Made by a program: the position numbers and the translations under genes. From a virus, in IMG/VR virus record IMGVR_UViG_3300042923_000541, positions 1 through 46,337 of that record: DNA of 46,337 nt; one strand, given 5' to 3'. The notes beneath the pieces were generated by a model, which saw only the letters and a program-made list of their open reading frames with translations, did not search any database and had not been told where the DNA came from. Below are positions 13,418 through 16,130 of this stretch, piece after piece. The number at the start of each line of letters is the position of its first letter. The first letter of the stretch is position 1.

Positions 13418-13843
13418 ATGCCGACATATGATCCGAAAAAGGTTCTTGTTTCCCTTGGCGGCTTGAATATTCACGGATTCTCCGAAGACAGCATAATCAC
13501 TATATCGCCGATGGGTGACGGGATCACTTCCGTCGTCGGCTGCGACGGGCAGGTCGTCAGAACCTTGTCTCCAGACCGGCGGCACGAGGTCACGATTCCA
13601 CTGCAACAATCAAGTTCCAGCAATGATGAATTGTCAATTATTCACGCCCGCGACAGGAGCAAGGGAGATGGAATTCTCCCCCTCCTGGTAAAAGACCTGT
13701 CAGGCCGAACGACGTTTTTCGCCTCGCAGGCGTGGATCACCAAGCATCCGGAGGTAAACCGGACCAACGACGCCAGCGGAGGAAATACGGAATGGGTTCT
13801 GAATACCGCTGACGGCACTTTGTTTGTAGGAGGGCATGATTAA
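13418..13843 (+). CDS. Tail tube protein (DUF3277 family)
   Basis: A 141-residue protein from ATG 13418 behind AGAGGGGGTG. It has the DUF3277 pattern: Y-D-P-K-K-V near the start, then I-x-G-F-S-E-D-S-I-I-T-I, a D-G-x-V-V-R-T-L-S-P-D-R-R-H-E-V-T-I-P-L-Q-Q-S-S core, and the I-T-K-H-P-E.NR segment. It follows the sheath as tube genes do. The stop overlaps the next ATG by one base. Confidence 0.82.
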   Translation: MPTYDPKKVLVSLGGLNIHGFSEDSIITISPMGDGITSVVGCDGQVVRTLSPDRRHEVTIPLQQSSSSNDELSIIHARDRSKGDGILPLLVKDLSGRTTFFASQAWITKHPEVNRTNDASGGNTEWVLNTADGTLFVGGHD

Positions 13844-14304
13844 TGGATATCACGGAATTTAATCAGGGCGAATATACGTTTTACCTTCGCCCTATGGACC
13901 CTTTCAAATCACTTGATTTGTTGGGCGATCTGCAAAAGACGGTTCTGCCTGCATTAGGGGCTGCGCTTGGGAAAACGAACCTTGGCGCCGCAGATGGCGA
14001 CGAAGAAACAGCGCCGGCACAAAAAGAATCCGTTACTCTGTCTAATCTTTTGAGCAAAGAACTGGACGTAGAAAATGCATTAAAACAACTGTCTGCGGCG
14101 GTTAGCGGGGCGAAACTGAACGACCTGCTTACTCGTATCCTCAATGGCGATTATATTAGCTATGGTCCTTACGGTGACAAGGATAAGGTAAAAAAACTCG
14201 ACAGGGCCGCACTGGCGTCAATCTACAACGGCAAACTGAAAGGCATGTTCGAACTGGCCTGGCAAGTGCTGCGGGTGAACTACAGCGATTTTTTTATAAT
14301 TTAG
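13843..14304 (+). CDS. Tail assembly chaperone, unshifted product
   Basis: The 153-residue zero-frame product. Chaperones in this position coat the tape measure during tail assembly and are made in two forms by ribosomal frameshift. The protein has F-Y-L-R-P-M-D-P-F-K-S-L-D-L-L near the start, an Ala-rich centre and a helical end, F-E-L-A-W-Q-V-L-R-V-N-Y-S-D-F-F, as in the phage TAC families. The last codons before TAG include the slippery run at 14289-14295. Confidence 0.85.
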   Translation: MDITEFNQGEYTFYLRPMDPFKSLDLLGDLQKTVLPALGAALGKTNLGAADGDEETAPAQKESVTLSNLLSKELDVENALKQLSAAVSGAKLNDLLTRILNGDYISYGPYGDKDKVKKLDRAALASIYNGKLKGMFELAWQVLRVNYSDFFII

Positions 14305-14324
14305 CTAATCCAATTTGGGTTAGC
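14289..14324 (+). promoter_or_regulatory. -1 ribosomal frameshift signal
   Basis: Seven T in zero-frame phase T-TTT-TTT (14289-14295), an eight-base spacer, then GCTAATCC (14304-14311) pairing with GGGTTAGC (14317-14324) around a five-base AATTT loop. This is the classical layout of a slippery heptamer followed by a stimulatory stem, and the zero-frame stop lies in the spacer. Confidence 0.85.
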
Positions 14325-14567
14325 AAGCGGAAGGATAAGCCGGTGAATATCCCCGGCACTCTCCGGCAAGACGTGGCCGAACAGCTTATCATCTGGAAGC
14401 CAATAACGGCTAAGCTGTGCCGCTTGGAGGCGGTTAAATCAGGCGAGATAACCCTCGTTGATCTGCAGAAAATGAACGCAATCCTGGGTATGCAGACAGA
14501 TATTCAAAATCAGGCGATGGATGACGCGAGAGTTAAGGACAAGAACGGCACGGGAAAAAGAAAATAA
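14295..14567 (+). CDS. Tail assembly chaperone, -1 frameshift extension
   Basis: After a -1 slip at T-TTT-TTT (14289-14295) the ribosome reads from TAT 14295 to the stop at 14565-14567, adding 90 residues to the first 151 for a fusion of 241. The extension opens Y-N-L-A-N-P-I-W-V and continues as an Asp/Lys-rich helical domain, like the T part of lambda G/GT. A GTG at 14343 with AAGGATAA upstream could also start the extension alone, but frame, slippery site and hairpin favour the fusion. Confidence 0.82.
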   Translation, partial: YNLANPIWVSKRKDKPVNIPGTLRQDVAEQLIIWKPITAKLCRLEAVKSGEITLVDLQKMNAILGMQTDIQNQAMDDARVKDKNGTGKRK

Positions 14568-14568
14568 C

Positions 14569-14586
14569 GCTTCCTTTTATTTTGGG
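14569..14586. repeat. 18-bp inverted repeat, left arm
   Basis: GCTTCCTTTTATTTTGGG, the exact reverse complement of 14772-14789. The two arms enclose the promoter and gene of the Arc-like repressor. Confidence 0.85.
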
Positions 14587-14594
14587 AATCCCTC

Positions 14595-14627
14595 TTGACA
14601 ATATATAATGTAATGTTGTAATATTGT
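14595..14627 (+). promoter_or_regulatory. Promoter and operator of the Arc-like gene
   Basis: A perfect TTGACA (14595-14600), 18-base spacer and TAATAT (14619-14624). Overlapping it are ACAATAT (14598-14604) and its inverse ATATTGT (14621-14627), a likely operator for the repressor encoded at 14644. Confidence 0.75.
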
Positions 14628-14643
14628 ATCAAGGAGGGATGTA

Positions 14644-14781
14644 ATGGAAAAAACCATCAATTTCAAGGTTGATGAAGATTTTTATAAGCAGATAAAAGTA
14701 AAAATAGCCTTGGAGGGAATTACCCTCAAAGACTATGTTATCTCACTTATAAAATCTGACCTGGAAAAATCCCCAAAATAA
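14644..14781 (+). CDS. Arc-like ribbon-helix-helix repressor
   Basis: A 45-residue protein from ATG 14644 behind AAGGAGGGATG. It has one beta-strand (T-I-N-F-K-V-D), a first helix (D-F-Y-K-Q-I-K-V-K-I-A-L-E) and a second helix beginning T-L-K-D-Y-V-I-S-L, the ribbon-helix-helix fold of Arc/CopG repressors. It has its own strong promoter with an inverted repeat, so autorepression is likely. It stands at the head of the antirepressor cassette within the tail operon, as arc does in P22. Confidence 0.78.
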   Translation: MEKTINFKVDEDFYKQIKVKIALEGITLKDYVISLIKSDLEKSPK

Positions 14782-14789
14782 AAGGAAGC
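14772..14789. repeat. 18-bp inverted repeat, right arm
   Basis: CCCAAAATAAAAGGAAGC. It contains the stop codon of the Arc-like gene and, on the minus strand, the T-rich tail of the predicted antisense RNA terminator. Confidence 0.85.
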
Positions 14790-14851
14790 CCGTTTCAAGT
14801 TTGCCCACCTGACGGACTTCCAATCCCGCAAACCTCAGAAGAGGCTTACTT
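14777..14851 (-). ncRNA. Predicted antisense RNA (sar-like)
   Basis: Minus-strand promoter TTGCAG (14882-14887), 18-base spacer, TATACT (14858-14863), giving a start near 14851. About 40 bases on, GGAAGTCCGT (14821-14812) pairs with ACGGGCTTCC (14793-14784), one mismatch, followed by TTTTATTTT. The RNA would be about 75 nt, carry no reading frame, and be antisense to the gap between the Arc-like gene and the mini-protein genes. In P22, sar (about 68 nt) lies in the matching arc-ant gap and blocks ant. Prediction only. Confidence 0.55.
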
Positions 14852-14887
14852 GCTATAAGTATAGCATGTTTTACCCTCTATCTGCAA
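14851..14887 (-). promoter_or_regulatory. Promoter of the antisense RNA with palindromic operator
   Basis: TTGCAG-18-TATACT on the minus strand. The -10 is embedded in the perfect 16-bp palindrome TGCTATAAGTATAGCA (14851-14866), suitable for a dimeric repressor. Confidence 0.6.
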
Positions 14888-14912
14888 GGTTTAGCATGAT
14901 GGAGGTATTTTT

Positions 14913-15029
14913 ATGACCAAAACAGCTATTCCCGAATACAAATCGCTGGTTGAAATCATGGCGCGCCTCTGGTTGTTGGATGTAATGTCTGAAATGAAGC
15001 GCGAAAAAGAGGCAGGTGCTACATTATGA
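14913..15029 (+). CDS. Mini-protein A of the antirepressor cassette
   Basis: A 38-residue helical protein from ATG 14913 with a strong GGAGGT ribosome site. Its tail E-M-K-R-E-K-E-A-G-A-T-L resembles the tail of the next gene (E-I-V-E-E-K-K-A-G-A-V-I), so the two look like tandem relatives. Stop and next start overlap by four bases (ATGA). Function unknown. Confidence 0.55.
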   Translation: MTKTAIPEYKSLVEIMARLWLLDVMSEMKREKEAGATL

Positions 15030-15118
15030 CCAGAAACGATGACCTGCTGTTAGATTTAGTCGTCTTAATGATTCTTCAAGAGATTGTCGAAGAAAAGAAA
15101 GCAGGCGCAGTCATATGA
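15026..15118 (+). CDS. Mini-protein A' of the antirepressor cassette
   Basis: A 30-residue protein from ATG 15026, overlapping the preceding stop, with the AGGCAGG-type ribosome site inside the upstream gene. Shares the charged KKAGA-type tail with mini-protein A. A hydrophobic centre (L-L-L-D-L-V-V-L-M-I-L) could be a buried helix. Overlaps the next start by four bases. Confidence 0.5.
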   Translation: MTRNDDLLLDLVVLMILQEIVEEKKAGAVI

Positions 15119-15231
15119 GCAATGTAACATTCGATAATTTGCAAGGTTTTTTCAAATGGGTGAAGTTCACCGATGGTACATACATTGTTGACCCGGCATA
15201 TGTGGACGAATGGAGGCAGGAGCATGAATGA
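15115..15231 (+). CDS. Mini-protein B of the antirepressor cassette
   Basis: A 38-residue protein from ATG 15115. The segment F-K-W-V-K-F-T-D-G-T-Y-I-V-D-P-A-Y-V-D-E-W is clearly repeated in the next gene (A-K-W-I-E-I-E-D-G-R-Y-I-I-D-P-K-Y-L-N-E-W), so B and B' are duplicates. The D-G-x-Y-I-[IV]-D-P core is unfamiliar. Function unknown. Confidence 0.55.
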   Translation: MSNVTFDNLQGFFKWVKFTDGTYIVDPAYVDEWRQEHE

Positions 15232-15364
15232 CATGCTAATCATCGAAAGCCTTAACGGACTAGCGAAGTGGATAGAAATTGAGGATGGCAGGTATATTAT
15301 TGACCCTAAATATTTAAATGAATGGAGGTTTAAAAATGAGCAATCAACTACAAAAGGTATTTGA
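15224..15364 (+). CDS. Mini-protein B' of the antirepressor cassette
   Basis: A 46-residue homologue of mini-protein B from ATG 15224, with GGAGGCAGG upstream. It overlaps the antirepressor start by 29 bases, so translation of the two is probably linked. Confidence 0.55.
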   Translation: MNDMLIIESLNGLAKWIEIEDGRYIIDPKYLNEWRFKNEQSTTKGI

Positions 15365-16130
15365 GTATCAGGGCAATGCAGTTAGAACGGTAACGGTTGA
15401 AGGCGCTCCTTGGTTTGTGGCTAAAGACGTGTGTGATATTTTGGAACATAGCAATAGCCGAATGGCTCTTGATCGCTTAGATGATGACGAAAAGGGTGTA
15501 AGCTCAATTGACACCCTTGGCGGAAACCAGGAAGTTCAAGTCGTTAATGAGCCCGGCCTATACAACCTCGTTCTAGGAAGCCGCAAACCTGAAGCGAAAG
15601 CATTCAAACGTTGGGTAACACACGAGGTATTGCCGGCTATTCGCAGGCACGGAATGTATGCAGTAGAGGAACTGCTTGACAATCCCGACTTGATGATCAA
15701 AACATTTACGGCTCTAAAGGAAGAACGCGAGAAAACAAAACGCCTTGAACTCCAAAGTGCTCAACAATCGCAAATAATTAATGAGTTATCTCCGAAGGCT
15801 ACTTATTACGATCTAGTCCTACAGAACAAGTCTTTGCTGGCAATAACTAAAATAGCGAAGGATTACGGTATGTCAGGGACTGCTCTGAATGCATTGCTCC
15901 ATGAGTTGAGCATCCAGTATAAGCAAGGCGATGTGTGGCTTTTGTATCAGAAATATGCTGACAAAGGATACACTCAGAGCAAAACACACGTGATTGACGA
16001 CGAGCGGAACAAGTTCCATACTTATTGGACGCAGAAAGGAAGGTTATTTATTTACGATCTTCTTAAAGGCAAGAAGGGTATATTGCCTCTTATCGAACGC
16101 GAAGGCTTGCGTCTAGTAGCGAATAAATAG
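15336..16130 (+). CDS. Phage antirepressor (BRO-N plus KilAC)
   Basis: A 264-residue protein from ATG 15336 with TGGAGG upstream. Residues 1-110 form a BRO-N/P22 AntA-type domain (W-F-V-A-K-D-V-C-D-I-L-E-H, D-D-D-E-K-G-V, N-E-P-G-L-Y-N-L-V-L-G-S-R-K-P-E-A-K-A-F-K-R-W-V). Residues about 140-260 are a KilAC/ANT domain (A-K-D-Y-G-M-S-G-T-A-L-N-A-L-L, W-T-Q-K-G-R-L-F-I-Y). Such proteins inactivate a repressor to permit induction. The gene is downstream of the Arc-like repressor and followed by a terminator. Confidence 0.9.
   Translation: MSNQLQKVFEYQGNAVRTVTVEGAPWFVAKDVCDILEHSNSRMALDRLDDDEKGVSSIDTLGGNQEVQVVNEPGLYNLVLGSRKPEAKAFKRWVTHEVLPAIRRHGMYAVEELLDNPDLMIKTFTALKEEREKTKRLELQSAQQSQIINELSPKATYYDLVLQNKSLLAITKIAKDYGMSGTALNALLHELSIQYKQGDVWLLYQKYADKGYTQSKTHVIDDERNKFHTYWTQKGRLFIYDLLKGKKGILPLIEREGLRLVANK

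Follow-up and report, generated by a model that had tools for sequence, protein, structure and literature searches.

The DNA analysed here, referred to as the window, is the whole of a 46,337-nucleotide stretch of a viral record (IMG/VR, IMGVR_UViG_3300042923_000541), in which a small operon interrupts the tail gene cluster, lying after the tail assembly chaperone gene (13843–14304) and before a tape-measure-like gene. The operon is read on the plus strand and contains a gene for a 45-residue protein of the ribbon-helix-helix (RHH) type, four short overlapping open reading frames (ORFs) and a gene for an antirepressor with Bro-N and KilAC domains. The RHH protein (14644–14781, Arc/CopG-like) matched a NikA-like profile with 20.8 bits, below the cut-off of 27; its AF2 model (pLDDT 84) has an extended N-terminal end and two helices, and a Foldseek search with this model returned weak PDB matches to ParG, Arc and CopG, the best being ParG (E 0.16, TM 0.73). 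The first small ORF (14913–15029, 38 residues) has no family match and is 79% identical in L010, a viral contig described below, and the second (15026–15118, 30 residues), which overlaps the preceding stop codon (ATGA), is present there with 57% identity. The third (15115–15231, 38 residues, 95% in L010) and the fourth (15224–15364, 46 residues) also have overlapping starts, are paralogues of each other (47% identity) with no assigned family, and stand between the antisense RNA discussed below and the antirepressor. The antirepressor gene (15336–16130) has its own Shine–Dalgarno (SD) sequence, GGAGG, near 15322–15327, and was identified by Pfam matches to ANT (4.6e-33) and Bro-N (5.6e-26), both above the cut-off, and by a match to phrog_130, anti-repressor Ant (4e-99).

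Some further features were observed at the left side of this operon. The chaperone ORF ends over GATTTTTTTATAA, and the −1 frame is open from 14283 into a 74-residue DUF6889-like ORF (14283–14567), which suggests that the programmed frameshift usual for tail chaperones may lead from the one (13843–14304) into the other. A 21-nt inverted repeat (95%; 14569–14589 and 14769–14789) flanks the RHH gene together with its promoter; the left arm repeats the sequence that the antisense RNA has at its 3′ end, and the bracket around the RHH gene is also found in L010. The inverted repeat may mark the edge of a cassette or serve as a decoy within read-through transcripts. Three near-octad direct repeats, TGTAATGT, TGTAATAT and TGTATCAA, occur at the RHH gene promoter (~14607–14631) and are possibly the operator of that gene.

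A minus-strand RNA is predicted to start in the interval that separates the RHH gene from the first small ORF, where a preliminary description had proposed a small antisense RNA served by a promoter and a terminator of its own, at the position that sar occupies in phage P22; this reading is now backed by relatives. The promoter elements then named, TTGCAG and TATACT with an 18-nt spacer, were recovered by direct reading of the letters, the weak −35 lying at 14887–14882 and the −10 at 14863–14858, preceded by TG to give an extended −10, TGCTATACT (14858–14866). From a predicted 5′ end at about 14851, the RNA would run to a 3′ end at 14775–14772 (~77–80 nt), where the stop codon of the RHH gene lies 9 nt inside it. 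It consists of two hairpins (14851–14775; fold z −5.75), namely H1 (14828–14849), nearer the 5′ end, with nine pairs and the loop UUCU, and a terminator hairpin (14784–14821) with ten pairs and an inner stem-loop, directly followed by the U tract TTTTATTTT (14783–14775). The folding energy of −35.6 kcal/mol compares with −19.7 ± 2.8 in shuffles, none of 200 being as low, and with only −17.6 kcal/mol for the sense strand of the same region, because three pairs that are G–U on the RNA become A·C mismatches on the sense strand.

The other particulars of the preliminary description fared differently. Its ten-pair hairpin is the terminator and stands, while the one mismatch ascribed to it is a U–G wobble on the RNA, the C·A mismatch being present only on the plus strand, and the second, nine-pair hairpin (14849–14828) had been overlooked. 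The absence of a reading frame holds in that no minus-strand ORF of at least 40 residues covers the RNA. The −10 had been placed in a perfect 16-bp palindrome, which is actually a 7-2-7 inverted repeat (TGCTATA AG TATAGCA). The RNA was correctly assigned to the region between the Arc-like gene and the antirepressor, but this is not a simple gap, as the four short overlapping ORFs (14913–15364) intervene. As a possible operator of the family, the palindrome was rejected, arms of at least 6 occurring in just 5 of 40 members (3% in shuffles). A consensus promoter and terminator scanner listed neither the promoter nor the terminator of the antisense RNA, because TTGCAG matches three of the six letters of the −35 consensus and the scanner admits terminator loops of no more than 8. 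There are no transcript data; to the extent that sequence alone can establish it, the minus-strand RNA exists, and the decisive evidence for it is its conservation in relatives.

Phage records searched directly at the DNA level with this region of the window gave no match, nor did a tblastn search of phages with the 45-residue protein, and strict hairpin patterns gave no matches in one search and a single contig, L010, in another. L010 is a close relative of the window (87% over 932 bases) in which the RNA, promoter and leader are kept and the antirepressor is mostly different (29% over part). A relaxed terminator pattern found 59 stretches in viral sequences, 7 of which were accepted by eye on the −10 and the 5′ hairpin (L014, L019, L034, L037, L043, L048 and L056) and 52 set aside, and thereby added five viral contigs (L019, L037, L043, L048 and L056) to L008 and L010, already found; on genomes it gave 18 matches, with one accepted (L076), from a metagenome-assembled genome (MAG) of Dethiobacter alkaliphilus. 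A covariance model of six sequences, R1, recognised three loci that were not part of it, L019, L048 and L008, with E-values from 2e-11 to 2e-8 in 204 kb, and led to a second RNA copy in the L019 phage and to further loci in genomes of the phylum of L076. Of its 21 genome matches, 15 were inspected and 8 accepted; L106–L109 and L111–L113 were rejected, being without a −10 and without a regulator. One viral contig was seen to carry two whole modules of RNA and BRO-type antirepressor (L122, 908–988; L019, 5641–5719).

A second model of 17 sequences, R2, had matches in 15 of the 82 genomes from the class of G011, in 9 of the 398 making up the phylum sample (6 of the 9 had supplied loci to R2) and in 2 of 147 from the order of G454, and in none of 299 from a control phylum, that of an Oceanospirillaceae MAG. 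Among the R1-matched genomes, only G007, G011, G069, G119, G163 and G202 recurred with R2 in the phylum sample. Several genomes hold multiple copies (three each in G011, G286 and G847, four in G454). These genome counts refer to species-level samples and rest on R2, for which the E-values are approximate. The final set, partly selected by eye and excluding L123, L146 and L152, comprises 40 accepted loci of one covariance-model family, residing in viral contigs and in genomes of the D. alkaliphilus phylum. Rfam 15 gave no match in the window at the gathering score, and 20 member loci searched to E 1 gave tRNAs and sub-threshold matches only, none at the RNA. In the openly licensed PMC literature nothing was found on this RNA family, on DUF6809, or on an anti-anti-Shine–Dalgarno with antisense RNA. 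Judged from these searches, the RNA family is a previously uncatalogued one of phages and prophages of Gram-positive-lineage bacteria. Adjoining one family member, at L105:940–1167, there is a sub-threshold match to a BsrG-type sRNA (45.3 bits, gathering score 55).

In all 40 accepted members the antisense strand folds more stably than the sense strand (mean −11.7 kcal/mol), and the idea that the structured RNA is the sense strand was rejected on these grounds. In an alignment that had been fitted to the model, 16 of 19 pairs are altered on both sides and 93.8% of the cells are paired, as against at most 57% in slid versions; in this alignment (A5), the pairs so altered number 9 of 9 in H1 and 7 of 10 in the terminator. 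A −10 with at least five of six matches was found in 38 of 40 members (control 8.3%), the −35 of the other members being mostly TTGCCN, TTGAAA or TTGTNN, and an ORF of at least 38 residues on the opposite strand ends −1 to +11 nt from the RNA 3′ end in 33 of 40 (a remnant in L037). The tests least affected by selection by eye are the one-per-cluster leader test given below and the 25 matches made by R2 only, which were taken before their surroundings were viewed, none being dropped and L146 and L152 being included: these have the −10 in 23 cases (control 8.3%) and an ORF of at least 38 residues ending at the RNA 3′ end in 17 (control 7.2%). The terminator-like hairpin with its U tract could be a mere relic of a terminator and promoter, whose transcript, if made, would do no more than end or collide with leftward transcription; this is barely credible, however, given that H1 is conserved across 29 sequence clusters jointly with a −10 at a nearly constant position, the arrangement of the genes and the leader switch.

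The genes on the two sides of the RNA vary. Among 32 scanned ORFs that end at the RNA 3′ end, 11 match HTH_17, several match RHH models, and eight are a conserved protein with no assigned role. The first of the genes behind the RNA, here called guarded genes (n = 37), include Bro-N (3), M78 (ImmA-like) peptidase (4), HTH_3 (7) and DUF6809 (4) proteins, and an antirepressor is the second or a later gene in the window, L056, L008 and L128 (in L056 and L008 by visual judgement). Phage tail or integrase genes surround L131 and L128; in L129, two of five neighbours scanned had matches, to a regulator and to an acetyltransferase. ImmA-type peptidases act as antirepressors, as in ICEBs1. Going by these matches, the regulators (RHH, HTH_17) and the guarded genes (BRO/KilAC, ImmA-type peptidases, XRE, DUF6809) are swapped around the RNA, and the guarded genes fit a role in lysogeny exit.

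The main reading of this arrangement, to which a probability of about two in three is given, is that the cis-antisense RNA controls the genes behind the RHH regulator by way of a leader switch, a translational attenuator guarding lysogeny-exit genes. Three stretches would compete in the sense mRNA of the window: an anti-anti-SD, AGAGG (14840–14844), in the 3′ arm of the H1 complement; an anti-SD, ACCCTCT (14873–14879), about 30 nt downstream in the leader, where it falls inside the antisense promoter between −35 and −10; and GGAGGT (14901–14906), the SD that serves the first guarded ORF and is followed by TATTTTT before the ATG. With no antisense RNA bound, the H1 complement would hold the anti-SD and leave the SD open; once the RNA had paired with its 80-nt complement, the anti-SD would be freed and the SD closed. 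The regulator gene, translated upstream, would stay on and the guarded genes would be turned down, which in the window are the four small ORFs that overlap one another, followed by the antirepressor with its BRO/KilAC domains. The probable outcome is that the adjacent lysogeny-breaking genes are silenced, because the antisense RNA allows their mRNA to fold back onto the ribosome-binding site it carries. Production of the RNA and its pairing in vivo are inferred, as is the direction of the effect, and it is a further inference that the antirepressor is the end target, that its synthesis is repressed by the RNA, and that it inactivates the phage repressor.

The evidence for the switch is thermodynamic folding. 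In free mRNA of the window the anti-SD is predicted to pair with AGAGG at 14840–14844 (P 0.84) and hardly with the SD (P 0.01), and blocking the antisense-covered stretch lowers the predicted unpaired probability of the SD from 0.31 to 0.09. In most members the antisense promoter spacer holds GGAGG-like letters (CCTCC in the mRNA), with the SD of the guarded gene about 25 nt after the anti-SD. Over 32 leaders, blocking shifts the SD from 0.40 to 0.245 unpaired; it closes by more than 0.05 in 21, opens in 4 (L137, L138, L142 and L143) and does not change in the near relative L037 (0.25 to 0.28). The main predicted partner of the anti-SD lies 5–12 nt inside the RNA 5′ end in 27 of the 32; in free mRNA the anti-SD favours the antisense-covered stretch over the SD in 18 and already favours the SD, or neither, in 14.

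In a shuffle test of 28 leaders, from which the irregular L138, L139, L142 and L143 were excluded, the SD in the leader alone is unpaired at 0.17, compared with 0.43 in spacer dinucleotide shuffles (lower in 27 of 28), and with the antisense-covered stretch added it is unpaired at 0.39, compared with 0.22 when that stretch is shuffled (more open in 24 of 28). The one-per-cluster test used simple shuffles on 28 of 29 clusters, included the four irregular leaders and omitted L151/L156/L157, in which the start codon is too far away or absent; there the SD is less unpaired bound than free in 25 of 28 (p 3e-4), more unpaired in the free state than when shuffled in 25 of 28 (p 6e-6), and less unpaired in the leader alone than when shuffled in 24 of 28 (p 2e-5). 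The SD and anti-SD also change jointly, as in L129 (AAAGAGGC/GCCTCTTT), L154 (GAAAGGAT/ATCCTTTC), L008 (GGAGATT/AATCTCC) and L128 (AGGAGGA/TCCTCCT). What sequence and computation show is how the RNA is built and conserved, its promoter element and position, a leader hairpin that closes the SD, and a predicted change of fold. Support is good for the antisense RNA and its family; the switch is predicted consistently, and the biology is inferred.

In P22 the arc stop codon is at 15022, sar covers 15021–15090 in antisense, and ant begins at 15091; sar exerts negative control of ant (PMC12197685, PMC13397905). The likeness lies in an antisense RNA of about 70 nt with two hairpins, set between an RHH repressor gene and an antirepressor, to which the window adds four small ORFs, and in a 3′ end on the stop codon of the repressor gene. 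The promoter of sar, however, is within ant, and sar extends to the ant start codon, whereas the window RNA (5′ end 14851) misses the ribosome-binding site (SD 14901–14906, start 14913) and likely acts through the leader switch; no such switch is annotated in the P22 record. Arc and Ant of P22 are unrelated to the window proteins by BLASTP. Homology with sar was rejected, since RF00262, which scores P22 at 97.8 bits, has no match in the window either at gathering or up to E 10, and R2 misses the sar stretch of P22 (5.9 bits, E 0.87). A direct action, in which RNase III cleaves the antisense–mRNA duplex or the duplex obstructs ribosomes, with the leader hairpin merely incidental, would suit both the 80 nt of perfect complementarity, which exist by construction, and the address shared with sar behind arc. 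It is nevertheless rather unlikely, as the RNA 5′ end lies 47–71 nt before the first guarded start in 32 of 40 members, leaving the SD uncovered, and the SD-closing hairpin is stronger than chance in the leaders tested alone.

The leader switch itself has a parallel in the RNAI/repC system of plasmid pT181, where, according to PMC3861533, the antisense RNA refolds the mRNA leader and a hairpin closes just before the start codon. For the family, 25 of 28 cluster representatives are predicted to release, on antisense binding, a segment that then closes a hairpin ahead of the start codon; the pT181 system serves plasmid replication and works by transcription termination, whereas SD closure of phage genes is predicted here. 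No Rfam ctRNA matches the window or, in the 20 member loci searched, the RNA itself. Attenuation as in pT181 proper, in which pairing with the antisense RNA allows a terminator to form directly ahead of the guarded start codon, has the precedent of RNAI (PMC3861533) and the observation that TTTT stands within 10 nt of the start codon, behind the SD hairpin, in 12 of 39 members, the window included, so that termination may matter instead. This account is unlikely, there being no U run in 27 of 39 and the leader hairpin of the window being short.

The c4 RNA of phages P1 and P7 acts from within the same operon transcript. It too is an antisense control of an antirepressor, described in PMC12197685 as pairing around a ribosome-binding site. 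On the main reading the window RNA would work like sar, and in its leader mechanism like pT181 attenuation, and it is a member of neither. Against the translational switch stand the poor −35, the promoter missed by the scanner and the lack of transcript data. Moreover, because the window antirepressor has its own SD, it could escape closure of the SD at 14901 unless coupling or polarity links the two.

That phage antirepressors can be under antisense control was already known from P22 sar and P1 c4; the present RNA family is separate from these, is spread across many phages and prophages, and has a distinct predicted mechanism that can be tested. It would explain how genes for lysogeny exit remain silent although the regulator ahead of them is expressed, and supplies an annotation signature for such genes and a compact natural antisense/SD switch. 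A wider reading is tentative, possible rather than probable: the antisense RNA and its SD-closing leader may be a portable switch of mobile elements of the Bacillota lineage, around which regulators and lysogeny-breaking genes are exchanged, and may also confer RNA-based superinfection immunity. The RNA is diffusible and near-identical in phages with different antirepressors (the window and L010), so that the RNA of a prophage may silence the antirepressor operon of an incoming phage, and the sharing of RNA-based immunity by prophages thus becomes testable.
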